From: an uncultured Flavobacteriales bacterium
GTDB lineage: Bacteria; Bacteroidota; Bacteroidia; Flavobacteriales; Crocinitomicaceae
DNA: 9,671 nucleotides
NCBI GenBank assembly: GCA_946479125.1
Contig: CAMLET010000084.1
Span: forward strand, 1-9,671
Direction: 5' to 3'
Part shown: positions 1 to 9,671 of the stretch, piece by piece
How positions within the stretch are numbered: the first letter of the stretch is position 1
Layout of the letters: every line of letters begins with the position of its first letter
Translations under genes and position numbers: made by a program
The notes under the pieces: generated by a model
What the model was told of the DNA's origin: nothing
Database searches by the model: none
What the model saw: the letters and a program-made list of their open reading frames with translations, nothing else

Positions 1-338
1 CGGAAGAAACCATCAATATTGTGATTTACTTTCCAATGCTAGCATTACCGATAACCGGAATCTGGTGTTTGTTCGAGGGCGTTTTCCCAAATGGAATTGA
101 GTGGTTACTTCTTCTACTGATTGGGATATTCACACAAATTGCTCAAGTATTGATGACACGGGCTTTTCTGGCAACGAACGCCTCAGTCATTGCGCCTTTT
201 CAATATTTAGGAGCGATATATGCACTGACTTTTGGATGGATTGTTTTTGGAGAACATTTAGAAATCATTCACCTGATTGGAATTTCATTGGTTATTGTGG
301 GAGTTGGTGTTGGAGCAGTTGTTGCTGGAAAGAAATAA
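1..338 (+). CDS. EamA/DMT-family transporter, C-terminal part (cut by window start)
   Basis: The reading frame is open from base 3 to the stop at 336-338, so about 111 C-terminal residues are visible and the true start lies to the left of the window. The peptide is almost wholly hydrophobic, with about four membrane segments. It has the late-EamA pattern: a helix ending in QVLMTRAFLATNASVIAPF, a glycine-rich helix, the conserved FGWIVFGEHL segment, then a final helix IGISLVIVGVGVGAVV and a short basic tail (AGKK). Family knowledge: EamA proteins are inner-membrane drug/metabolite transporters of ten helices built from two five-helix repeats, and this would be the second repeat. The substrate cannot be read from the sequence. 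The gene converges on the barrel gene that ends at 473. Confidence 0.85.
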   Translation, partial: EETINIVIYFPMLALPITGIWCLFEGVFPNGIEWLLLLLIGIFTQIAQVLMTRAFLATNASVIAPFQYLGAIYALTFGWIVFGEHLEIIHLIGISLVIVGVGVGAVVAGKK

Positions 339-465
339 CTTCGATTCTCGACTACGCTCGATAACCGAAGCTCAGTTACCTGACATTCTCTTTATTAATA
401 TAATTGTCACTTGGCGCAGTATTACAAATCCTTCACTGTAACTGGGTTGTGCTGGAAAGAAATAA
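323..465. repeat. 16-bp exact direct repeat of the transporter gene's 3' end
   Basis: The 16 bases TGCTGGAAAGAAATAA at 323-338, which encode the last residues (AGKK) and stop of the transporter, recur exactly at 450-465. The second copy also reads AGKK-stop in its own frame. The 111 bp between the copies include a hairpin (339-370). The arrangement looks like a short insertion or local duplication that copied the gene's end. It may instead be a remnant of an older gene terminus displaced by inserted sequence. Confidence 0.6.
339..370. repeat. REP-like imperfect palindrome between convergent genes
   Basis: Two 13-base arms (339-351 and 358-370) match as inverted repeats at 11 of 13 positions around a 6-base loop, and begin and end with CTTCG/CGAAG. 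It starts at the base after the transporter stop and lies between convergent genes. No good T-tract follows on either strand, so a terminator role is uncertain. Similar CTTCG...CGAAG palindromes recur between genes in many Bacteroidota, as far as I recall. Confidence 0.5.
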
Positions 466-472
466 AAGCTTT

Positions 473-1189
473 CTAAAACGAGACATGATAACTCAGATTC
501 AAACCACCACTAAAAAGTGTCGCTGAAATTGGTGCGTCAAGGATTTTTGTCAGACCATAACGAAAAGTCGGCTCTAAACGCAAAGTGTTAAATTCGTTCA
601 TTTGATAACTGATTCCAGCACTGATTGTTGCGGTTAGATTCACTTTCTTGAAATCGTAACCAGGCGAATTGGTAAAATACTCACGGTGATCTTGAAAGTA
701 AAGGACTGTTCTGTCCGTTTCTCCAATAAAGAAATTAGCAACAACTCCTGCTGCTCCCACAAAACGAATTTTCTTACTTCCGAATGATAGGTTAATGCTA
801 ACAGGAACATCGAAATATTGCATGTTGTAAAGTGTTTTGAGCTTCACAATTTCGGTTTGCTCACCACTTGAAAAAGTCAAGTTATCGATTTCCATTTTAT
901 AGCCTTTATTTGAATACAGAAAGCCGAATCCAAGCGCTATTTGGTTATTGAAATTGTAAAAGGCATTCACACCCGTTGTGTAGCTGTACTTGGGGGTTTC
1001 ATCTTTGTTTCGCTCATCAATAATACTCCCTAGTGCGCCATTCGTATCGTATAACTTTCGATAACAATAATCTCCAGAAAAACTATACCCGAATTGCCAG
1101 TTTTTAAGAACATTTGAAGAGTCAAGCTCTTCTTGAGCACTGGAACCGAAGAGGATAAAAAATGAAGTGGACAGCAGTAAGTATTTCAT
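473..1189 (-). CDS. Outer-membrane beta-barrel protein (PorT-like)
   Basis: The 238-residue product opens with a clear Sec signal peptide (residues 1-19, MKYLLLSTSFFILFGSSAQ). It continues with alternating amphipathic strands typical of Bacteroidota small barrels: YSFSGDYCYRKLY, YSYTTGVNAFYNFNNQIALGFGFLYSNKG, YFDVPVSINLSFG, KIRFVGAAGVVANFF, ATISAGISYQMN, LRLEPTFRYGL. It ends in a barrel-like strand with a terminal phenylalanine (GGLNLSYHVSF). Family knowledge: PorT/OMP_b-brl_2 proteins are about 200-250 aa eight-stranded barrels inserted by the BAM complex, mostly of unknown individual function. It is the last gene of the minus-strand cluster, 36 bp downstream of the Coq4-like gene. True PorT orthology (type IX secretion) is not implied. 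Confidence 0.8.
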   Translation of the reverse strand: MKYLLLSTSFFILFGSSAQEELDSSNVLKNWQFGYSFSGDYCYRKLYDTNGALGSIIDERNKDETPKYSYTTGVNAFYNFNNQIALGFGFLYSNKGYKMEIDNLTFSSGEQTEIVKLKTLYNMQYFDVPVSINLSFGSKKIRFVGAAGVVANFFIGETDRTVLYFQDHREYFTNSPGYDFKKVNLTATISAGISYQMNEFNTLRLEPTFRYGLTKILDAPISATLFSGGLNLSYHVSF

Positions 1190-1225
1190 TTGGCTATTTT
1201 GATTTCTACCGAACGTAAAACTCGC

Positions 1226-1720
1226 TTATAAATTGTATTTATGGATTATAACAGAGGTTTGTAAACCTAAACAGCTCTCTAACTCCAAAGCTAAAATTGA
1301 AGGCCCCAATTTTCCTCTCTTATATTCTGTGTACAACGTTTCCCATGAGCTTGGAAGAATCACTGCAGAAAGAAGAAACAGGACACAGAACACACTTCTA
1401 TTCCCATTTCCTAAAAGATATGCCTGCATTCGCAATTCGTCCAAAGACGACATTCCATAACCTAAAACAAGATGTTTCAAGTCGTGATTCTGAAATACCG
1501 GAATAAAATCCACATTTTCCTGAACAAGTATGTTCGCATAATCCTTTCCAATTGATCCTTCTGGACAACTATTCATCTCTTCGAGCTTCTGTTGTAAGAA
1601 TTTCTTCCCATAAAAAAGCTGCAGTGGTTTTATCACTAAACAGATCTTAAGTGACTCTATAATCTTCTCTGCTAAAACAGTTCTGAACAATTTATTTTGG
1701 GAGGTGATTGCAATTTCCAT
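1226..1720 (-). CDS. Coq4-like protein with intact HDxxHx11E motif
   Basis: The 164-residue protein has no signal peptide. The centre carries CPEGSIGKDYANIL (residues 52-65), then HDLKHLVLGYGMSSLDE (79-95), an exact HDxxH-x11-E motif with H79, D80, H83 and E95, followed by RMQAYLLGNGNRS (97-109) and a hydrophobic helix (110-122). This order matches the Coq4 family: a PxGSLG turn, the metal-binding HDxxHx11E, then a hydrophobic helix. Coq4 in proteobacteria and mitochondria helps ubiquinone synthesis. It is shorter than mitochondrial Coq4, as expected for bacterial relatives. Bacteroidota generally make menaquinone, so its substrate here is unknown. It lies between the acidic 131-aa gene (44 bp) and the barrel gene (36 bp), probably cotranscribed. 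The family call rests on motif reading, not on a profile search. Confidence 0.65.
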   Translation of the reverse strand: MEIAITSQNKLFRTVLAEKIIESLKICLVIKPLQLFYGKKFLQQKLEEMNSCPEGSIGKDYANILVQENVDFIPVFQNHDLKHLVLGYGMSSLDELRMQAYLLGNGNRSVFCVLFLLSAVILPSSWETLYTEYKRGKLGPSILALELESCLGLQTSVIIHKYNL

Positions 1721-1764
1721 GATTATCGATTTGATGAGTTATCTCCAAAATAATTATTCCAGTT

Positions 1765-2160
1765 TTAACGAGCTTTATACTTTTTTATTTCTTCCCGGAT
1801 TTCAAATGCTAAAGAACGAGCCTTTTTCCAATCTTCATCATTTTGAATGACTTCAACGGTTCGCTCTTTTTTGAAAAGCTCAATGGTTTTCTCTCGCAAA
1901 TCCAAAATACGCTCTTTCAATTCAGCTGGAATCAAACCTTTTTCAATCAACCTGTTTATCGAATTAGAATGCAAAAACGAAAATGCATCTCCATCAAGTT
2001 CTTCGAATATAATTCCAAGAAGTTCTTCTTCCGGCAATTCAAGATTCTTTTCATCATACCAGCCCAGTGTCATAATCACCAAATCAAAAGACTCATCAAC
2101 AGAAAGTTCATATTCTGAATGATTGGTTTCTGGCTTATTTCTTTTGAAAAATGAGAACAT
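1765..2160 (-). CDS. Hypothetical acidic cytoplasmic protein, 131 aa
   Basis: I do not recognise this family. The product has a short basic start (MFSFFKRNK), an acidic, mostly helical middle (SVDESFDLVIMTLGWYDE, then LPEEELLGIIFEELDGDAF) and a C-terminal half rich in alternating K/E/R helices that could form a coiled coil (residues 80-130). There is no signal peptide, membrane segment or catalytic motif. The start lies 10 bp after the stop of the DUF4180 gene, so the two are very likely translated from one mRNA. The small acidic helical build resembles some immunity or adaptor proteins, but nothing in the sequence establishes that. Confidence 0.7.
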   Translation of the reverse strand: MFSFFKRNKPETNHSEYELSVDESFDLVIMTLGWYDEKNLELPEEELLGIIFEELDGDAFSFLHSNSINRLIEKGLIPAELKERILDLREKTIELFKKERTVEVIQNDEDWKKARSLAFEIREEIKKYKAR

Positions 2161-2170
2161 ACTTTCTGAT

Positions 2171-2536
2171 TTAGATTGAAAAATAACTCAACGCATCAGC
2201 AATTGATTCTGAAAAATGAACGAGTTTACCTTTATTGCTCTCCCGAATGAAATCGGTCAAACTCTTCGAAGAAACAGAAGTAAATTCTCCAATGATAAAC
2301 AAACGCATTCGGTAATTGGAAAATTTCTGGAGGATCTCGCCAGCCATTCCGGTTTTCAAATCGAAGAAATCGGGTACAATATTTTGCTGATGAAGAACAA
2401 TCACATCGAAACCAGAGTAATAAAGATCTCCAAGAAGTTGTAACGCGTCATCGCTTGTATTAACCAAAATCTCATCGGTCATTACTTCAGCAATTTTGAC
2501 AGAAGCTATTTCGTGTTCCTGAATAGTGTAGTTCAT
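2171..2536 (-). CDS. DUF4180 domain-containing protein
   Basis: The 121 residues match the DUF4180 pattern along their whole length: SDDALQLLGDLYYSGFDVIVLHQQNI (residues 28-53), the most conserved block PDFFDLKTGMAGEILQKFSNY (55-75), RMRLFIIGEF (76-85), and SKSLTDFIRESNKG (90-103). This is the usual size for the family. DUF4180 proteins are small cytoplasmic proteins of unknown biochemistry that occur as single-domain genes in Bacteroidota, Firmicutes and others. The gene sits 12 bp downstream of the MORN-repeat gene and 10 bp upstream of the acidic protein gene, inside the presumed operon. The family assignment comes from remembered consensus. Confidence 0.85.
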   Translation of the reverse strand: MNYTIQEHEIASVKIAEVMTDEILVNTSDDALQLLGDLYYSGFDVIVLHQQNIVPDFFDLKTGMAGEILQKFSNYRMRLFIIGEFTSVSSKSLTDFIRESNKGKLVHFSESIADALSYFSI

Positions 2537-2548
2537 TCGTTCTTATTA

Positions 2549-3556
2549 CTAAAAATCAAGGATCAAATCCATATCAACGTAAGTCCCAACTGCTTCGTTG
2601 GAAAATGTTGCAGGGGGCCATCGTTTGATTTTCGCAATGCTTTTCTCAATTTGAGCCATAATATAATCATCAACGTAAAGTACTTCCTCTAGATTTATAT
2701 TCCCCTCACTGGTAATCACAAGAGAAATCACCGCCAATCCTTTCGCACAATTGCTTCCCTTATTTAGTTTCAGATGCTTTAATATCTCACGTTTCAAAAG
2801 AAGCATATTGTTTGCGTACGCTTCCTGATCTTTAAAAATACTTGCCGGATAGTTCCCATTCATCATGGTATCCGCATACACCATTACTTCATCCAGATGT
2901 TCCGTAGAAGTATAGAACCTATTGAAATCTACCGGGACCTCATTCCCCGATTCATCGAAGAACTTTTCACTCAGTAGCTTTGTCCTTTGATGGTCCACCA
3001 AACTGTCAGGCATTGAAAAGTTCAAGACACTTGAGATCTGTCCGTTCTGAAAATACTCCACACACTCACCCACAGAAATGGCATATGAAAACGTTTTATA
3101 GTGCGACTCTATTTTCCCATTGGCGTAATAAGTTTTTCTTTCCGAGAACGTTAACGATTGATATTCGTGTTCTTTTCTTACATTACCGTTTTCATAGAAC
3201 ACTGTCTGCTTACTATAGAAATACGGCGGATCATGGGAGTGTTTTTGTTTATCGATTGATTTTAATTTTCCCGATCTGTAATAACAAAGAATATGAATGG
3301 TATCATTCGCTTTCCATTCCTTACGAAGAACTTTATTATCAAGAGGATCAATATAAGTTAAGCAATACTCCACTTTCGATTGTAAGCCTCCTTTTTCAAA
3401 AACAGTATAAGAGGTATCAATATTCACATAGCTACAGTTTCTGTATTCCACATCTACACGTCTGTAGCAATTGTCCTTGGTAAGATAAATGGTATCACAG
3501 TTTTGCGCGGTGGAAAATATCGGGAAAAGCAAAACCAGCAACAAAAGGTGTTTCAT
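2549..3556 (-). CDS. Exported MORN/YwqK-type repeat protein with TonB-C-like end
   Basis: The 335-residue product has a signal peptide with probable cleavage at STAQ|N (residue 18) and a Cys-rich N-terminal domain. A run of YwqK/MORN_2-type repeats follows: YRSGKLKS (93-100), YENGNVRKEHEY (121-132), YANGKIESHYK (144-154), YFQNGQISSVLNF (168-180) and FDESGNEV (200-207). The C-terminal part (about 267-335) reads GLAVISLVITSEGNI, then a helix, then RWPPATFSN (312-320) and a final strand, matching the TonB C-terminal fold as used in many Bacteroidota periplasmic proteins. Likely periplasmic or surface-exposed. It is the first gene of the five-gene cluster, 112 bp from the DUF4403 gene upstream. 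Automated annotation often calls such repeats 'toxin-antitoxin YwqK antitoxin'; nothing here supports a toxin partner. Confidence 0.75.
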   Translation of the reverse strand: MKHLLLLVLLFPIFSTAQNCDTIYLTKDNCYRRVDVEYRNCSYVNIDTSYTVFEKGGLQSKVEYCLTYIDPLDNKVLRKEWKANDTIHILCYYRSGKLKSIDKQKHSHDPPYFYSKQTVFYENGNVRKEHEYQSLTFSERKTYYANGKIESHYKTFSYAISVGECVEYFQNGQISSVLNFSMPDSLVDHQRTKLLSEKFFDESGNEVPVDFNRFYTSTEHLDEVMVYADTMMNGNYPASIFKDQEAYANNMLLLKREILKHLKLNKGSNCAKGLAVISLVITSEGNINLEEVLYVDDYIMAQIEKSIAKIKRWPPATFSNEAVGTYVDMDLILDF

Positions 3557-3668
3557 GAATGAAATTCTATTTAATCAAAAGTTGATGGGATGAAGGTAAT
3601 GTAAAATTGTTGGACGGAATAAACTCCATACAAACTGGAATCAAATTTTTAATAACGTTATCCGTTAA

Positions 3669-5117
3669 TTACTTCGGGGGCAAGCCACGGAAACTTTCTT
3701 TTTTTAATGAAACATCAAAATCACCACTCCCAGAAATCAACAACTGAATGTTGTCTTTCCCCAGTTTAACTTCCAGATCTTCTATTACAATTCCCATTAC
3801 ACCAATGTCAGCCTTTTTTGCCAATTTGCTTTTGCTCAACGCTTTCTCGCTGAATTCAGGAATTGATTCGAGTAGTTCTCTAACGTCGATCGTAGTATAT
3901 TGTTTAACGAGGTTTGTCATTTGCTCATGCAACAAGTCCGTCACAGAGCCCAAAAATTGGTCATCCAGTTTGTTTTCGAAAGAAACTTTCCGAATTGCGA
4001 TTTGCTGGTCATCAGCAGAAAACTCTGGAAAACCTCGCATTAACAGTGTTCCACGTACTGTCCCACCATGTTTCACTTTCACATAAATGTTTTTTTTGCC
4101 ACTTAAAATTTCCACTTTTTTGATTAACAAATCGAGACCTTTAGCACTGAAGCGTTTACCTTGCAACTCTCGTCTTGCGATTTCATTCAACTTTTTTAGA
4201 GGAAAAAGACAGTGTACATGAATTTTACTTGACGCTGTAGTTTCTTTTTTAGAAATAAGTGAGATTGTTTTCGGAAATTTCACTTTTTGTATGGTTGCCG
4301 TATCTTCTCCAAATCGGAGGTAAACTTTTGCGGTAACAATCAAATCCAGTTTTAACGAATCACTAAGGCTTTTGTCTACATAAACCCCCAATGCTTTGGG
4401 TTGAATCCGTACAAAAAGGTCCTTTTGTTTTTTGGTTGCCTTGATTGAATATTGAATTCTATTCCAAATTTTAACCGTTTGTTTTTTGATGTTGATCTTT
4501 TTCGACATCAAACTATCTAGTTTATGCGTTATCTCTGGTGATTTTTCTTCTAGTAATCCATTTATTTTTTCTTTCAGATTAATATCGAAACCCAACAACT
4601 TTACATTTGGTTCTTCAACCCATATAACTTCTTTCAGTCTACTTTTGGTTTTCAATTTCATGTTGCGGGTTACTCCAAAAGAAGATTCCAAAGAGGCATC
4701 AATAAGAAAGTTGAGCGGTTCTTCTTTGAATAACAGAACATTTTTCTTTCCAATAACACGTTTAATGATTTGTACTTCAACTTTCAAAGGAACAGAAGAT
4801 TGAAAGCAACCATTTCGAAGTTTAATATCGATATCTCCAAGACGTGTAATTTTCAATATCAGTGTATCATTCTGGTTTTTCATTGGAAAACGGCTATCCA
4901 CCAAAACCCTTTTTATTTTCCTATTGGCCAATTTCTCAATATCATTCATTGAAATAAGCAAGGGGAAATTGAACTTCGTTATTTCTGGTTCATAAACTGT
5001 TTCACTCGTATTTTTGGTCACTTTCAGCTTTTTATGACGTGCAACCAAAACTATAGTCAGAACGCTCAATAACACGAGCACAACAAAAGCCAATAATATC
5101 TTAAGAAAACGTTTCAT
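3669..5117 (-). CDS. DUF4403 family protein, membrane-anchored
   Basis: The 482-residue product starts with a basic cap and one long hydrophobic helix (about residues 4-26, ILLAFVVLVLLSVLTIVLVA), read as an uncleaved N-terminal anchor. After it comes the DUF4403 layout: FNFPLLISMNDIEKLANRKIKR (49-70), a 'TLILKITRLGDIDIKLRNG' strand pair, and several later beta-rich blocks with the repeated pattern of a target strand followed by charged helix. The C-terminal half repeats a similar 'FPLKKLNEIARRELQGKRF' element, consistent with the internal duplication in this family. Length fits the usual 450-500 aa. DUF4403 proteins are common in Bacteroidota and of unknown function; their strand pattern resembles lipid-binding tubular proteins, which is an inference. 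It is the first gene of the minus-strand block, and its upstream region (5118-5193) is plain AT-rich DNA. Confidence 0.8.
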   Translation of the reverse strand: MKRFLKILLAFVVLVLLSVLTIVLVARHKKLKVTKNTSETVYEPEITKFNFPLLISMNDIEKLANRKIKRVLVDSRFPMKNQNDTLILKITRLGDIDIKLRNGCFQSSVPLKVEVQIIKRVIGKKNVLLFKEEPLNFLIDASLESSFGVTRNMKLKTKSRLKEVIWVEEPNVKLLGFDINLKEKINGLLEEKSPEITHKLDSLMSKKINIKKQTVKIWNRIQYSIKATKKQKDLFVRIQPKALGVYVDKSLSDSLKLDLIVTAKVYLRFGEDTATIQKVKFPKTISLISKKETTASSKIHVHCLFPLKKLNEIARRELQGKRFSAKGLDLLIKKVEILSGKKNIYVKVKHGGTVRGTLLMRGFPEFSADDQQIAIRKVSFENKLDDQFLGSVTDLLHEQMTNLVKQYTTIDVRELLESIPEFSEKALSKSKLAKKADIGVMGIVIEDLEVKLGKDNIQLLISGSGDFDVSLKKESFRGLPPK

Positions 5118-5193
5118 AGCTTGCGGCTGTTACAATATAAAGCCTGCTGATTTTACTTTGAAGATAGCTGAAATAAAGAACTATACAAAACAG

Positions 5194-5231
5194 AAAAGCC
5201 TCACAAACTTGCAAAGTTTTGGGGTGGAGGA
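5194..5231 (-). repeat. Degenerate copy of the tRNA-end/terminator sequence, left flank of GIY-YIG gene
   Basis: The segment opens with AAAAGCCTCACA, identical to the terminator part of the 129-bp repeats (for example from 5896). It continues with a recognisable but diverged copy that ends in GGGGTGGA against GTGGGGAA in the repeats. It lies just downstream of the GIY-YIG stop codon. The internal AAACTT/AAGTTT pairing could still form a weak hairpin in the minus-strand transcript. Confidence 0.5.
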
Positions 5232-5238
5232 AAATCTG

Positions 5239-5487
5239 CTAAATAATTCCGTTTTTTCTTAAAAAATTCTTTCCTGCTGTTGATTTAAGATATTTCTCAC
5301 GTTTTCGCGCTTCAATAGCCTCACCTATTTCTTCAGCATAAATCAACTTCCAAGGCATAAAAGTTTTGGTGTAAGTTGACTTTCCCGCATTATGCTCTTT
5401 CAACCTTGCATGAACATCCATTGCCATTCCAACATAATAAGACTGATTCGATTCACTTTGGATGATATAGACGAAATATATTTTCAA
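5239..5487 (-). CDS. Small GIY-YIG nuclease (UvrC-N/URI-like)
   Basis: The 82-residue single-domain protein shows the family landmarks in order: a VYI strand replacing GIY (residues 6-8), YYVG (17-20) replacing YIG, the catalytic arginine in HARLKEHN (R28, with H32-N33), PWKLIYAE (45-52), and EARKREKYLKS (59-69) with the metal-binding glutamate E64. It closes with AGKNFLRKNG. This is the full length of stand-alone URI-like members. GIY-YIG domains cut one DNA strand with a single metal ion; cellular roles of these small versions are unknown. The gene is isolated, and degenerate tRNA-end sequences flank it on both sides (5194-5231 and 5553-5652). That suggests it travelled as a unit or inserted beside a tRNA. 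Start ATG at 5487 fits the domain's N-terminus. Confidence 0.9.
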   Translation of the reverse strand: MKIYFVYIIQSESNQSYYVGMAMDVHARLKEHNAGKSTYTKTFMPWKLIYAEEIGEAIEARKREKYLKSTAGKNFLRKNGII

Positions 5488-5683
5488 AATAGTAAGGATT
5501 AGATCATACTTGAATATAGGAAAAAAATAATCCTTTTGATAAACTCAGATTTTTCAACGGAATGATGGATTAGATTTAGCCAAGACACTAAGGGAAACGC
5601 AAATAACAATACTCTTATTCAGGTTGTCAACAGGAAGTTCATAAAACAAAATCTGTAAGGCTTTCGTGGGGAATGACGGATTC

Positions 5684-5712
5684 CCTGTCTGCCTGTCGTC
5701 AGAACAGGCAGG
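5684..5712. repeat. REP-like palindrome inserted in tRNA T-loop sequence, copy 1
   Basis: This 29-bp insert interrupts GGATTC|GAACCGCC, which is continuous at 5936-5949. It contains the stem CTGCCTGT (5689-5696) / ACAGGCAG (5704-5711) with a 7-base loop. It is far richer in GC than the surroundings. No obvious target-site duplication is visible; the insertion point is the middle of the palindrome TTCGAA. Confidence 0.75.
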
Positions 5713-5764
5713 GAACCGCCTAGACAATACTCTTAGCAGGATGTCGGCGGAAAGTTTGTGAAAC

Positions 5765-5793
5765 AAAAAAGCCTCACATCTCTGTAAGGCTTT
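5765..5793 (-). terminator. Rho-independent terminator inside repeat unit 1
   Basis: Same hairpin as at 5894-5922, one repeat period to the left. In minus-strand RNA it is AAAGCCT / AGGCUUU with an inner ACA/UGU pairing, then six U. Its only use now would be to stop readthrough from the right. Confidence 0.7.
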
Positions 5794-5812
5794 CGTGGGG
5801 AATGACGGATTC

Positions 5813-5841
5813 CCTGTCTGCCTGTCGTCAGAACAGGCAGG
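5813..5841. repeat. REP-like palindrome inserted in tRNA T-loop sequence, copy 2
   Basis: Identical to the insert at 5684-5712 and exactly 129 bp away, so it was copied as part of the tandem unit and was not inserted independently. Confidence 0.75.
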
Positions 5842-5893
5842 GAACCGCCTAGACAATACTCTTAGCAGGATGTCGGCGGAAAGTTTGTGAAAC

Positions 5894-5922
5894 AAAAAAG
5901 CCTCACATCTCTGTAAGGCTTT
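5894..5922 (-). terminator. Rho-independent terminator downstream of the tRNA-Val fragment
   Basis: In minus-strand RNA a 7-bp stem AAAGCCU/AGGCUUU (5916-5922 and 5897-5903) encloses a loop with a further ACA/UGU pairing. Six U (5894-5899) follow at once. It starts two bases after the tRNA discriminator base, the usual position of a tRNA terminator, so it was probably the original terminator of the tRNA-Val transcript. Confidence 0.8.
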
Positions 5923-5924
5923 CG

Positions 5925-5979
5925 TGGGGAATGACGGATTCGAACCGCCGACATCCTGCTTGTAAGGCATGTGCACTCA
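5925..5979 (-). pseudogene. tRNA-Val(UAC) 3' half, 5' half missing
   Basis: On the minus strand the sequence reads, in order, anticodon loop CTTACAA (5960-5966, anticodon TAC), stem GCAGG, variable ATGTC, T-arm GGCGG-TTCGAAT-CCGTC (one G-T pair), acceptor strand ATTCCCC (5926-5932) and discriminator A (5925). CCA is not encoded. Toward the 5' side, AGTGCACATGCC still resembles a D-arm/anticodon-stem junction but has an A-G mismatch in the anticodon stem. No GGGGAAT acceptor strand or D-stem partner is present upstream. It is therefore a broken tRNA or an attachment-site remnant, not a working gene. The anticodon call follows from the loop position. Confidence 0.8.
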
Positions 5980-6195
5980 CCTTCTACTTTGTAGATATAG
6001 CAATGAATGTAGACGTTTGTGTAAATTATTTGCAGGTAAATTGACAATAAAAAACTGGATTAATAAATACTTTTTTGAATTTTATTTAGCTTGTGCATGA
6101 AGCAGACAAACACAAATCCAATTTAACCAAAACTCAAGGAATTCAGAAAGTACAATTTACTCTTGAATCCCCTAAGCTTGGTCTTTTTGGCATTT

Positions 6196-6633
6196 TTAAA
6201 GTTGTCCTTTATCAGCAAAACTATAATAACCCGATGCAGTTAGAATTACATGGTCAAGTACATCTATTTGCAACATTGCCCCTGCTTTTGCAAGTCTTTT
6301 AGTTAGGGTTATATCAGCATCACTAGGTTTTAATTTACCTGATGGATGGTTGTGAGCCAGTATAATTCCCGACGCCATGGTTTTAAGTGCAACGGAGAAG
6401 ATCAATTTTGCATCTGCAATTGTCTCAGACACCCCACCAATGGAAACTGGATAAATTCCTAAGACATTGTTTGCACGGTTAAGCAGGATGATTTTAAACT
6501 CTTCAAAAAGCTCAATGGTATTCTTGTTCCATGTTTGTTTTAATAAGTCAAAGGCATCAAAGCTACAACCTATTGTTTTGCTTGGAAGTTTTGTCCTTCT
6601 GTATGAAACTTTTATCTCTGAAATGTTTTCCAT
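6196..6633 (-). CDS. RadC-like JAMM/MPN-domain protein
   Basis: The 145-residue protein is a compact RadC-type JAB domain without the N-terminal helix-hairpin-helix part of full RadC (about 225 aa). The metal site is complete: a glutamate in LFEEFKIILLNRANNVLG (E44 or E45), then HNHPSGKLKPSDAD with H94, H96, S104 and D107, an exact HxHx7SxxD. It ends DHVILTASGYYSFADKGQL, the usual RadC ending. Short RadC-like genes are typical of plasmids, integrative elements and genomic islands in Bacteroidota. RadC's old link to DNA repair is disputed and its substrate is unknown. The gene is divergent from the polymerase-like gene across a 244-bp region. It lies next to the tRNA fragment, consistent with an element edge. 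Confidence 0.92.
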   Translation of the reverse strand: MENISEIKVSYRRTKLPSKTIGCSFDAFDLLKQTWNKNTIELFEEFKIILLNRANNVLGIYPVSIGGVSETIADAKLIFSVALKTMASGIILAHNHPSGKLKPSDADITLTKRLAKAGAMLQIDVLDHVILTASGYYSFADKGQL

Positions 6634-6663
6634 GGGTGTAGATTTTAGTGATAATATTTTAAT

Positions 6664-6710
6664 GGGGTGCGGGGACTTTCCCCTTCCAAAATCATGCGGG
6701 GGTCGCCGAG
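6664..6710. promoter_or_regulatory. GC-rich palindromic island between RadC-like and polymerase-like genes
   Basis: A short G/C-rich stretch stands out in otherwise AT-rich DNA. It holds the hairpin GGGGA-CTT-TCCCC (6671-6683), two copies of TGCGGGG 27 bp apart (6668-6674 and 6695-6701), and GTCGCCGAG. No reading frame uses it. It could be an origin of replication or transfer, or the 5' region of a structured transcript. The sequence alone does not choose between these. Confidence 0.4.
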
Positions 6711-6759
6711 TTAGTCACTCTTGTCTGAAATATTCTCAGAAAATTTTTGTGAAGATATT

Positions 6760-6778
6760 CGTAATGGAAATGATTACG
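6760..6778. promoter_or_regulatory. Perfect inverted repeat CGTAAT-N7-ATTACG
   Basis: Six-base arms at 6760-6765 and 6773-6778 surround seven bases in the divergent promoter region, about 100 bp upstream of the polymerase-like gene. A protein-binding site is plausible. The spacing also allows a small hairpin, but no T-tract follows. Confidence 0.35.
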
Positions 6779-6785
6779 TCTTAAC

Positions 6786-6804
6786 TAATTCCATGAATTA
6801 ATTC
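6786..6804. promoter_or_regulatory. Candidate operator with three GAATTA/TAATTC half-sites
   Basis: TAATTCcatGAATTAATTC contains a 6-bp inverted repeat with a 3-bp spacer and an overlapping 10-bp perfect palindrome (6795-6804). The same half-sites recur at the XRE gene promoter (8656-8675). That suggests a shared regulator, though AT-rich DNA makes chance matches possible. Confidence 0.35.
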
Positions 6805-6865
6805 ACCCTATAATCCTTGATTTTACTGGTGATTCTTAAAAAGGAGAAACATAGGGGAGATATAT

Positions 6866-6873
6866 TAGATTTG
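6866..6873 (+). promoter_or_regulatory. -7 promoter element TAGATTTG for the polymerase-like gene
   Basis: An exact match to the Bacteroidota -7 consensus TAnnTTTG, four bases before the annotated ATG at 6878. No clear -33 TTG is seen at the right distance. If the element is real, transcription starts at about the ATG. The mRNA is then leaderless, or translation begins at the in-frame ATG at 6920 (residue 15) or 6938 (residue 21). Confidence 0.45.
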
Positions 6874-6877
6874 TAGA

Positions 6878-8260
6878 ATGGTTATAAAGTTGGTAGTACC
6901 TGATATAGATATTGAATCTATGTTGGGGGTTGACGGTATGGATTTTAAAACTGATGGCAAACGTCAGAAATATGTTGATTGCATCTATTATGTTTTGTAT
7001 TCAATAGTCAATCAATGCAATGTCCAGAGAAGTAAATTTTTAGCAAGTGGCTATGTCCCTTTGTATTCTGTACTACTTAAAGAAGCGTTAGGTAAAAATT
7101 ACAAGCGTTATTTAATGGACTTAGTTGATAATCATATTATTGATGTACGTAAACGAATTCTAAACGGAAATGAGGTTTGGGATTATTCAATGAGGAAGAG
7201 TTTTAGTTTTAGATTGGGTCAGGAATATTCTGGTGTCGGGACAAAAATATATGAGGTCAATGATTGGGTATTACGCAAATTTCTAATTGGTCATCGCTTA
7301 CGGGTAGTCAATGAAAAATACACAGATAAAGCTATAGAAGATAGAGCTCTAATTGATTTCTTTGACAATTGCTTTAATGATTTAACCATAGAGTATGAAC
7401 CTGCGGTTGAGAAGTTGAATGAGTTAAAACAAGCTATTCAGAGTGATGAAAGCGTCAGTATTGATGAGCGTGAAGCAAAGGCAAATGATATGTTTGTATC
7501 AACAAAAGCTACATTGGATCTATTACACTTTAAGACATATAGAACGCTTTTTAGAGATGATCTGACCAAAAGAATATATTCACCTATCACGAGCTTAAAA
7601 AGAGAGTTAAAAGTGTATCTGAGATATAAAGGTGAACCTCTTGTAGTAATGGATATAGCTAATTCACAGCCATTTTTCGTGAATTATATATTTAGAGATC
7701 GGTTTGTTGAGGTTTTAGAAAATAATGCTCTTTTACAAGATTTTTTACCACCTGATAGATTTAAAACAATTAAGAAATTCTGTGATCAGAATCCTTCTAA
7801 CATAGATTTATACAGGCAACTTACTTCAGAAGGAACACTTTACGATTACCTAATGGTTGAACTTGGTAAATTGGACATAAATTTTAAGGATAGGAATAGG
7901 TTTAAGGATTTCTTTTTTAGAATGTTTTACTCACTAAACAATCAAAATTCTGGGGACATTGGTACAGTGAAAAAATTGATGACTAAAACATTTCCTTTAG
8001 TAATGCTGTATGTAGTGATGATTAAGGATTTCAATTACAAAGTATTCCCTATTCTGATGCAGAATATAGAATCCTTCATTATGATAGATAAAATCTCCAA
8101 AACTATTAGAGAAAGACATCCAGAACTACCATTTTTTACTATTCATGACAGTATCTTGTGTTTAAGAGAGCATGCTGAACTCCTGAAAGAAATAATGGAG
8201 AATCAAATTATTGAACACACGGAAGTTGCACCTACTATAGCTATTGAAGTTCCGAGATAA
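6878..8260 (+). CDS. Orphan family-A polymerase-like protein (Pol I/T7 RNAP-type palm and fingers)
   Basis: The 460-residue protein matches no named gene I know, but its C-terminal half carries family-A polymerase landmarks in the right order. KRIYSPITSLKRELKVYLR (231-249) resembles the segment before motif A. Motif A is VVMDIANSQP with D259. The O-helix signature is R339-x3-K343-x3-F347-x3-Y351, the same spacing as E. coli Pol I R754, K758, F762 and Y766. LMQNIESFIMIDKI (393-406) resembles the Pol I MQGTAADIIK helix. Motif C is FFTIHDSILC with H423-D424; Pol I has HDE, while single-subunit RNA polymerases have HDS. The N-terminal 150 residues look like a winged-helix module (YVPLYSVLLKEALGKNYKRYL...). 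No 3'-5' or 5'-3' exonuclease domain is present. It is divergent from the RadC-like gene. Whether it makes DNA, RNA or a primer, or is inactive, is unknown. Confidence 0.65.
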   Translation: MVIKLVVPDIDIESMLGVDGMDFKTDGKRQKYVDCIYYVLYSIVNQCNVQRSKFLASGYVPLYSVLLKEALGKNYKRYLMDLVDNHIIDVRKRILNGNEVWDYSMRKSFSFRLGQEYSGVGTKIYEVNDWVLRKFLIGHRLRVVNEKYTDKAIEDRALIDFFDNCFNDLTIEYEPAVEKLNELKQAIQSDESVSIDEREAKANDMFVSTKATLDLLHFKTYRTLFRDDLTKRIYSPITSLKRELKVYLRYKGEPLVVMDIANSQPFFVNYIFRDRFVEVLENNALLQDFLPPDRFKTIKKFCDQNPSNIDLYRQLTSEGTLYDYLMVELGKLDINFKDRNRFKDFFFRMFYSLNNQNSGDIGTVKKLMTKTFPLVMLYVVMIKDFNYKVFPILMQNIESFIMIDKISKTIRERHPELPFFTIHDSILCLREHAELLKEIMENQIIEHTEVAPTIAIEVPR

Positions 8261-8389
8261 CAAACTCTATTACGTCCATACACTCTCCCTATGTTGATTG
8301 AAACTTCTGTAGGTCAATTATTTCAAGTGTTTCATCAATACGATTATTTTGAATAATTGAATGTATTACATTTTTGCACCATCCAATTA

Positions 8390-8644
8390 CTACTCAAATC
8401 CTTCTGAGAAAAACTCTTCTACAGTAATACCAAGAGCCTTTATCACTTTTATTAGACTAGAGTATCTTAAATCCTGCCCATTCTCGTAGCGCCCAAATTG
8501 TGCACGAGGAATATCATGGTCAAAGGCGAAATTCTCGTAATTGGAATAGCCTTTCTTAATGCGAAGTTGTTTTATACGATCTGCCAGTTTTTGCAACTCT
8601 ATTTTTTGCAACTGTTTCTCTATGTCTTCTCCCTTCTTTGGCAT
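8390..8644 (-). CDS. XRE-family helix-turn-helix regulator
   Basis: The 84-residue protein has a lysine/glutamine-rich N-terminal helix (about 7-20) followed by a five-helix XRE domain: LADRIKQLRIKKGYS (20-34), NYENFAFDHDIPRAQFGRYENG (35-56) holding the turn and recognition helix, and LIKVIKALGITVEEFF (64-79). The ending 'LGITVEEFFSEGF' is characteristic of small Cro/C1-type regulators in Bacteroidota mobile elements. It probably binds DNA as a dimer and controls its own promoter, where a palindrome sits directly upstream (8656-8675). It is divergent from the membrane-protein operon starting at 8730 and convergent with the polymerase-like gene. Targets beyond itself are inferred only from shared half-sites. 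Confidence 0.88.
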   Translation of the reverse strand: MPKKGEDIEKQLQKIELQKLADRIKQLRIKKGYSNYENFAFDHDIPRAQFGRYENGQDLRYSSLIKVIKALGITVEEFFSEGFE

Positions 8645-8648
8645 GAAG

Positions 8649-8656
8649 CAAAGATG
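8649..8656 (-). promoter_or_regulatory. -7-like element CATCTTTG for the XRE gene
   Basis: On the minus strand CATCTTTG matches TAnnTTTG except for the first base and is separated from the XRE start ATG by four bases. The polymerase-like gene has the same spacing. The last base overlaps the adjacent palindrome, so a bound repressor would cover the promoter. Confidence 0.35.
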
Positions 8657-8675
8657 AATTAGTTAAAATTAATTC
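8656..8675. promoter_or_regulatory. Candidate XRE operator, imperfect palindrome
   Basis: GAATTAgttaaaatTAATTC has 8 of 10 arm positions paired (six outer pairs perfect). It lies 11 bp upstream of the XRE start codon, overlapping its putative -7 element. This is the classic layout of autorepression. Confidence 0.45.
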
Positions 8676-8695
8676 GTTACTATTTATTGGATACC

Positions 8696-8705
8696 ACTTA
8701 TAAGT
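8696..8705. promoter_or_regulatory. Perfect 10-bp palindrome ACTTATAAGT before the membrane-protein operon
   Basis: A perfect palindrome 24 bp upstream of the ATG at 8730, in the divergent region shared with the XRE gene. It may be a second operator. In AT-rich DNA this could occur by chance. Confidence 0.25.
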
Positions 8706-8729
8706 AGTTATATGTATTATTTTTATTGA

Positions 8730-9215
8730 ATGAAAACACTCTTAAAAATTCTAATTGTTATAGCTGTACTGGGGTTTGTGGGAAATCTACTAAATGAGAA
8801 AGTAAATGTCCCTCTAATAGCCTTTATTTTCATTTTGGGAGTTGCACTAGTTCTTTTGGAGCATTATAAGCCTCTTGACATGAAGAAGAAACATAAGGAG
8901 GTTATCATATTGGTAGTTTACAATATAGTTTCAAATGAAATGAATACTAAAGACATTCCTAAGTTGATTGATCAATTAATGAAAATCCTGAAATATAGAA
9001 ACAGTATAGGTTTTACAACCGCTGATACTTGTGGTATGTTGATAGAAGATTCAGATTTGAAGTTTAAGGTGTTTTCTGAATTTGATGAACACCAAATAGA
9101 ATATTTTCAGCAAACGTTGAATGAGCTTATGAAGTTCAAACTGTTTCCAGAACAAGTTACTATTTCCAAAGTCAACGATTATCTAAAACGCATATCAACC
9201 ATACAAATAGATTGA
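8730..9215 (+). CDS. Hypothetical membrane protein with cytoplasmic domain, 161 aa
   Basis: I do not recognise this family. Two hydrophobic helices open the protein (about residues 4-19, LLKILIVIAVLGFVGN, and 28-44, PLIAFIFILGVALVLLE). A basic loop (HYKPLDMKKKHKE) and a soluble, mainly helical domain of about 100 residues follow, with no cysteine cluster or catalytic motif I can name. The basic stretch after helix 2 predicts that the domain faces the cytoplasm. The next gene starts 3 bp after its stop and the one after that 2 bp further on, so this is the head of a tight operon divergent from the XRE regulator. Gene order resembles small accessory or immunity cassettes, but function is unknown. 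Confidence 0.75.
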   Translation: MKTLLKILIVIAVLGFVGNLLNEKVNVPLIAFIFILGVALVLLEHYKPLDMKKKHKEVIILVVYNIVSNEMNTKDIPKLIDQLMKILKYRNSIGFTTADTCGMLIEDSDLKFKVFSEFDEHQIEYFQQTLNELMKFKLFPEQVTISKVNDYLKRISTIQID

Positions 9216-9218
9216 TTT

Positions 9219-9599
9219 ATGAGAACACTAAGCATTTTAATCATCCTCTTTTTTTCTTCATCAGCAAAATGTCAATTATCAGAAGTTACTTATGATATAG
9301 AAACTCATGATACTCTTTCCGTTAACAACTATAGTACAGATTGGGCGGAATGGACAGTTGAGGATAATGTTATAACTTGGAGAATGTATGATAAAGACTC
9401 AATCCCTCTCTTAGTAGAACAGTACACAATCGTCTCTAGTCAGGCTACGGAAACAGGCTTTGTTTGGTCGTACGTAGTTAATACTGAAACTGGAGGAATG
9501 ATAACTATTGAATTTTGGATTTATGAGGACAGAAGTAAGGCTGTATCTCACAGGTATGATGACGGAGTAGTGCGTTATTCAGGCAATGTATATTTTTGA
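9219..9599 (+). CDS. Hypothetical exported protein, 126 aa
   Basis: The product begins with a Sec signal (MRTLSILIILFFSSSAKCQ, likely cleavage near residue 19). The cysteine at 18 lacks a proper lipobox, so it is probably a soluble exported protein. The mature part is acidic and beta-rich, with many aromatic residues (DWAEWTVEDNVITWRMYDKDS, GFVWSYVVNTETGG, IEFWIYEDRS), a pattern like small lipocalin-like or beta-sandwich proteins. No family is recognised. It sits between two genes spaced 3 and 2 bp away. Confidence 0.7.
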   Translation: MRTLSILIILFFSSSAKCQLSEVTYDIETHDTLSVNNYSTDWAEWTVEDNVITWRMYDKDSIPLLVEQYTIVSSQATETGFVWSYVVNTETGGMITIEFWIYEDRSKAVSHRYDDGVVRYSGNVYF

Positions 9600-9601
9600 T
9601 T

Positions 9602-9671
9602 ATGCAACGGCTTATTGTTCAATTAAAAGAGCCTTTAAACGCTGAATTTTGCGAGGCTGTAGTGACGTTAT
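9602..9671 (+). CDS. Start of a third operon gene, cut by window end
   Basis: An ATG two bases after the preceding stop opens 23 codons without a stop up to the window end (MQRLIVQLKEPLNAEFCEAV...). The spacing matches that between the two genes before it, which is the main support. There is no signal peptide, and too little is visible for a family. Confidence 0.5.
   Translation, partial: MQRLIVQLKEPLNAEFCEAVVTL

Follow-up and report, generated by a model that had tools for sequence, protein, structure and literature searches.

A polymerase-like gene family unrecognised by Pfam forms part of the backbone of tRNA-integrated islands in Bacteroidota

A 9,671-nt stretch of DNA from an uncultured Flavobacteriales bacterium (contig CAMLET010000084.1, positions 1 to 9,671; analysed as a whole and referred to below as the window) carries a gene, here named POL, whose 460-aa product combines a winged-helix-like N-terminal domain with a polymerase part of family-A type. 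Comparative analysis established that POL is a backbone gene of tRNA-integrated islands in Bacteroidota, is under strong purifying selection and, by its predicted fold, represents a new family inside the known superfamily of Pol A and single-subunit RNA polymerases (ssRNAPs). Judging from conserved motifs and a predicted fold, POL is very probably an active polymerase, and we are equally confident that it works for the mobile element itself; DNA is its likely product. An explanation that joins these points, an active POL serving as the copying enzyme of the islands, is the best one we can offer and has, in our estimate, an even chance of being correct.

Polymerase motifs, fold and kinship of the POL family

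The gene and its motifs are laid out in the window as follows.
6878..8260, + strand: POL, open reading frame (ORF) with ATG start, 460-aa winged-helix plus family-A-type polymerase
6878..7264, + strand: N-terminal winged-helix-like domain, residues 1-129
7559..7585, + strand: DxxGR-like motif, residues 228-236 (DLTKRIYSP), with invariant R232 at 7571-7573
7640..7675, + strand: motif A, residues 255-266, with D259 at 7652-7654 followed by IANSQP
7892..7930, + strand: motif B (O-helix), R339-Y351, a helix over residues 339-351 in the structure model
8057..8074, + strand: MQNIES (residues 394-399), the counterpart of MQGTAAD in Pol I, whose MQG it meets in an alignment that is insignificant overall
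8138..8152, + strand: motif C, TIHDS, residues 421-425

A preliminary description of this DNA, made from its letters, had read the gene as a compact family-A-like polymerase, a reading that is partly supported overall, while the sequence observation behind it is confirmed: D259 lies within LVVMDIANSQPFF, R339, K343, F347 and Y351 within RNRFKDFFFRMFY, MQNIES occupies residues 394-399, and H423-D424-S425 is preceded by T-I. The O-helix spacing alone is weak evidence, as RxxxKxxx[FY]xxx[YF] arises in 2.8% of 20,000 shuffles of POL, and it is because of conservation across the family that the pattern amounts to more than chance. An alignment of 60 proteins leaves R232, D259, S263, Q264, P265, Y322, K343, Q395, E398, T421, I422, H423, D424 and S425 invariant. 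The larger set of 197 sequences (exact duplicates and members shorter than 350 aa left out) comes mostly from loci picked via a motif-A DNA pattern, so that motif A, in contrast to the other motifs, is partly selected. Here R232, D259, S263-Q264-P265, Y322, K343, E398, H423 and D424 are kept in 197/197, Q395 in 196/197 and S425 in 190/197; the catalytic set of the superfamily (D in motif A, K in motif B, HD in motif C) is thus present in every sequence. Eleven unselected loci, from 9 of the 12 Bacteroidota genomes that match the POL profile and found by profile alone, show the D...SQ motif A and the motif-C HD in 10 cases each.

Other positions are more relaxed: 339 is R in 163 and K in 31 of the 197 sequences, 347 is F in 99, Y in 52, L in 26 and M in 12, 351 is F in 146 and Y in 49, and 266 is L in 96, Y in 56 and F in 43. 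Thus, among the four residues whose conservation the preliminary description had proposed to check, D259, K343 and D424 hold throughout and Y351 does not; within the O-helix, K343 is fixed and F347 and Y351 are both variable. R232, Q395 and E398 join the list of fixed residues. The two outcomes on which that description had staked its reading both came out in its favour, with a palm fold predicted and both aspartates conserved. Synonymous changes dominate in POL (dN/dS 0.08-0.19 in 66 usable of 78 pairs). This range, together with both catalytic aspartates, K343 and E398 fixed in 197/197, makes a DNA-binding relic or regulator without catalysis a very improbable reading of POL, although the insignificance of its sequence links to Pol I and a few broken or split copies (e.g., in loci L155 and L096) would fit such a role.

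The structure model predicts a thumb-palm-fingers fold, as expected of the Pol A/ssRNAP superfamily. Its structural score for mitochondrial RNA polymerase (6ymv; VIA Z 14.2, root-mean-square deviation 4.0, 269 residues aligned) is tied with those for DNA polymerases. The closest viral folds in BFVD are A0A8D9FR19 (E 5.6e-16, TMq 0.64) and A0A516L5C2 (E 1.8e-20, TMq 0.71); the label "Putative DNA polymerase I [uncultured marine phage]" is a database name only. An attempt to prove kinship with Pol I or T7 RNA polymerase at the sequence level failed (hhalign probabilities 2.5%, 11.8% and 0.2%), the Pol I value of 2.5% comparing with 98% for a true short phage PolA (cluster c84). Profile searches of the PDB returned a winged-helix regulator as the sole match (E 0.015), and none with a wider alignment. 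Kinship of POL to Pol I and T7 RNA polymerase therefore rests on the predicted fold.

Differences from known family-A DNA polymerases (Pol I Klenow fragment, KlenTaq, T7 gp5) are substantial. POL gives no PF00476 match and lacks an exonuclease domain, has DIANSQP and HDS where they have DYSQIELR and HDE, and spans 52 residues between K343 and Q395 where T7 DNA polymerase has 93. The curated PF00476 cut-off retrieves exactly one PolA from each of 22 host genomes and no POL from any. The counterpart of Pol I E710 may be Q264, P265 or residue 266, the motif-A alignment being unsure here. A study of bacterial family-A polymerases (PMC12926913) names PolA1, PolA2, PolA3 and PolA1-like groups. As described there, PolA3 is, like POL, an extra and partly phage-linked polymerase; the 3'-5' exonuclease domain is intact in PolA3 and inactivated in PolA2, whereas POL has no such domain in either form and, in contrast to all three groups, is not recognisable with a PolA profile.

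Several of these traits bear on an RNA product. That POL is a single-subunit RNA polymerase or primase of islands and phages, starting without a primer, is unlikely in our estimate, although POL shares with T7 and mitochondrial enzymes the tied structural score and the HDS motif C (an ssRNAP mark, S425 in 190/197), and its weak profile match is slightly better to T7 RNA polymerase (P 0.0025) than to Pol I (P 0.019). Against it, T7 RNA polymerase has 883 aa, H784 and Y639, whereas POL is about half as long with no promoter-reading part recognised, carries Q395 as in Pol I and has mostly F at position 351 (146/197). Position 347 is F or Y in 151/197, as in DNA polymerases, and there is no RNA_pol match in Pfam. 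By direct counting POL has Q264 rather than the ssRNAP glycine at the motif-A gate; none of Q264, P265 and 266 is Gly in the 197 sequences, the gate position not being fixed by the alignment. Judged on residues, Q395 and F/Y at 347 favour DNA as the product.

The family is large and apparently undescribed. A search of ~5.8 billion proteins yielded 59 relatives, from 75% down to ~20% identical and none with a Pfam domain; a further protein search gave at least 70 proteins, again with no Pfam domain in any, the named ones being called hypothetical. Pattern scans contributed 77 viral loci and 80 of 132 genome loci, confirmed by tblastn and overlapping in part with the protein-search relatives. 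At 45% identity the 197 sequences fall into 95 groups, a sign of great diversity, and the POL profile matches 12 of 198 Bacteroidota species drawn, the genome of the window included. Scans of POL itself gave no Pfam family up to E 10, no PADLOC match, and two uninformative hits, PHROG 4756 of unknown function (E 5e-4, the single PHROGs match) and an NCBIfam sigma factor (E 0.011, 16 bits vs. a cut-off of 211). An open literature search found no description of the family, though a 2023 reclassification of family-A polymerases might mention such proteins.

Several full and broken copies of POL can occur within one locus or genome (locus L096, genome G110). In Lutibacter litoralis (L155) the gene is split into two overlapping frames, with a best segment 37% identical to POL of the window; it adjoins an integrase and HTH_17, and a RadC gene lies in the same locus.

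A tRNA-integrated backbone with exchangeable cargo

Clustering of neighbouring genes identified a tyrosine integrase (PF00589, with SAM-like and arm domains) as the commonest neighbour of POL. An integrase profile match lies within 3 kb of POL in 55 of the 80 genome loci and is absent in 21, short contigs among them; host polA loci with ~1.5 kb flanks, taken as a control, gave 1/22. A small helix-turn-helix (HTH) protein, HTH_17, is found in 34 loci, in 24 of them immediately upstream of POL on the same strand. Fourteen of the 80 loci combine an integrase, a tRNA site and flanking direct repeats, as in tRNA-targeted integrative elements, and could be delimited as islands of 5.4-15.2 kb with repeats of 20-68 nt, each a part of a tRNA, on both sides of POL. 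Their integrases adjoin tRNA genes, and integrase cluster c1 is present in 13 of the 14, island L106 having a 385-aa gene in that place. The repeat matches the 5' part of the tRNA in L080, L100, L106, L127 and L141, and its middle in L084. Delimitation required repeats of at least 20 nt spanning POL, leaving out L132, L145 and L149 (15-17 nt) and L082 (tandem tRNA genes); less sure are L091, where two whole tRNA-Asn genes may form an ordinary tandem, and L092 and L153, with repeats of 23 and 20 nt.

Where the backbone ends can be seen at tRNA-Ser(TGA) of Flavobacteriaceae, from 13 loci compared in 78 pairs. Common DNA starts with the tRNA. Relative to the POL stop codon, it breaks off no more than 5 nt away in 35 pairs, 6-42 nt earlier in 13 and 102-105 nt later in two; in the remaining 28 it continues through cargo held in both members. 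The core unit is therefore tRNA-integrase-HTH-POL (~3.5 kb), with exchange of cargo directly behind POL. No synonymous site differs between the POL genes of Psychroserpens L111 and Algibacter L114, which we read as a sign of recent movement between genera.

Pfam matches among 118 further island genes include restriction-modification, SIR2, TIR, SEFIR, AAA, MerT, RadC, DUF3871 (5) and AAA_24 (3); the matches listed hold no relaxase, primase or helicase, and one Peptidase_S78 as the only phage packaging or capsid-type gene. Such cargo (Eco57I, SIR2_2, TIR_2, SEFIR, AAA_21) could suggest that POL is a defence polymerase comparable to abortive-infection reverse transcriptases. This we consider improbable, given that POL is constant where the defence-like cargo varies, that phages themselves carry it and that PADLOC has no match. 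Rather, the fixed active site, the strong purifying selection, the constant place beside the integrase and the changing cargo are the reasons why we see POL as serving the element.

Two further associations were noted. Inside delimited islands, DUF3871 genes (c32) recur near POL in L080, L092, L100, L122 and L127. Downstream of POL in L091 and L120, a 215-aa gene is followed by an AAA_24 gene (c307, ~245 aa), and the two may be partners in replication or recombination.

Occurrence in phages and the proposed role of POL

POL is also present in large viral contigs of up to 476 kb, as well as in records of uncultured phages (595-735 kb), which we take to be published huge phages. Sixteen viral records with POL, fragments in which absences prove little, contain PolB in 12, PolIII alpha in one, PF00476 PolA in two and a Toprim_2 primase in three. 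With PolB or PolIII alpha at hand, POL as the replicase was rejected for most of these phages, where it is usually a second polymerase. The scarcity of Toprim_2 (in fragments, other primase types not sought) is a further point for a primer-free RNA-making enzyme. Phage members are scattered over the family tree, with at least 9 label changes on well-supported branches. A 35-kb Hymenobacter plasmid carries POL together with its own replication initiation protein.

These observations have to be weighed against the role that we favour, replication or maintenance of the excised island, to which as a main role we assign even odds. The plasmid's own initiator counts against POL as the sole initiator there. 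Together with the phages that keep POL beside PolB and its constant closeness to the integrase, it fits a polymerase that fills gaps or completes strands, aiding integration, excision or post-transfer recovery instead of initiating replication. We rate this as unlikely, on a par with an RNA product, since that job could fall to host Pol I, present as one ordinary PolA in all 22 host genomes tested, and since a winged helix points to a defined binding site.

For island replication by POL, the proposed course of events would be as follows. Once the integrase and its small HTH partner have excised the island, the winged helix of the exonuclease-less POL, fused to its Pol A/ssRNAP-type polymerase part, would bind a site within the island and bring the enzyme there. 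The thumb-palm-fingers part would then synthesise DNA with D259 and D424 as metal ligands, the fixed K343, and Q395 and R232 as putative contacts to the primer end. This synthesis may either start replication of the island or complete its strands, and the excised element would survive and spread. Catalysis, DNA as the product, origin binding and replication as the purpose are what we infer; the most economical job for POL would be to replicate or complete the excised island.

A bolder version, which we regard as possible yet rather doubtful, makes POL a self-sufficient initiator-replicase, whose winged helix finds the origin and whose family-A palm primes and copies the 5-15 kb island, as Rep primases of archaeo-eukaryotic primase (AEP) type do elsewhere. 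The islands would then be a class of self-replicating, cargo-swapping Bacteroidota elements built on the ~3.5 kb core, with genes moved repeatedly between islands and huge phages. According to PMC5862659, PolpTN2-like and ColE2 Rep primase-polymerases, like POL, join a polymerase and a winged helix/HTH in one chain on mobile elements, and their winged helix/HTH has been proposed to recognise the origin; their fold is that of archaeo-eukaryotic primases, in contrast to the Pol A fold of POL, and the comparison is an analogy only.

If island replication by POL is confirmed, a polymerase family with no Pfam match would drive a common type of genomic island (12/198 Bacteroidota species) by which restriction, immune-like and metal-resistance genes pass from genus to genus, and would recur in some of the largest phages. 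These tRNA-inserted islands may carry their own unusual copying enzyme, and POL would be a handle for finding them. As a deeply diverged Pol A/ssRNAP branch mixing DNA- and RNA-polymerase marks (Q395 with HDS), the family would also be useful for asking how the two types of polymerase parted.

Some viral loci deserve separate mention. In L001, L002, L003 and L007 POL is followed by the short true PolA of cluster c84 (429-435 aa, 98% to Pol I by hhalign), placing two different Pol A-fold genes close together. In 28 of 77 viral loci, L033:9489-9692 being one example, POL comes directly after a 60-95-aa ORF with a Gp23 capsid-like stretch. An intron or insertion in a phage capsid gene, considered for a 67-aa Gp23-like ORF, was rejected. 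In three loci POL proved to be a gene of its own, surrounded by structural and glycosyltransferase genes, and an Rfam scan of six loci gave no intron.

The element in the window

Around POL, the following features were recognised.
5924..5988, - strand: tRNA-Val-like fragment covering positions 9-63 of the 71 in the Rfam tRNA model, with the 5' acceptor strand missing; putative attR
6196..6633, - strand: RadC-like JAB protein (PF04002, E 1.3e-36), a recurrent companion in such elements
8390..8644, - strand: XRE/Cro-type regulator, 84 aa (HTH_3, E 1.6e-5)
8730..9215, + strand: 161-aa ORF, possible cargo, no Pfam match
9219..9599, + strand: 126-aa ORF, possible cargo

The window would thus show one end of a tRNA-integrated element, with the fragment as its candidate attR. 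The fragment scores 27.4 bits, just under the cut-off of 29 (E 1.3e-3), and ARAGORN finds no whole tRNA in the window. Its anticodon loop, CTTACAA, is that of the tRNA-Val(TAC) carrying the 45-nt att repeat of L079, which belongs to the genome loci closest to POL of the window. From the orientation of the fragment, the element should therefore lie rightwards, through RadC, POL and XRE and past the window end at 9671; no integrase is present in the window, which ends there. DNA composition of the window shows no sharp border. RadC cluster c58 occurs in 5 of the 80 genome loci, two of these inside delimited elements, and the XRE regulator falls outside XRE cluster c28 of other loci.

Beside the putative att, a 129-bp tandem unit occupies 5652-5941, with a 32-nt stretch (tRNA 3' end plus downstream flank) in three exact copies; the tandem may have been left by repeated insertion and excision. 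Perfect inverted repeats of 16 nt (5735-5750 and 5864-5879 vs. 5945-5960) match part of the tRNA fragment.
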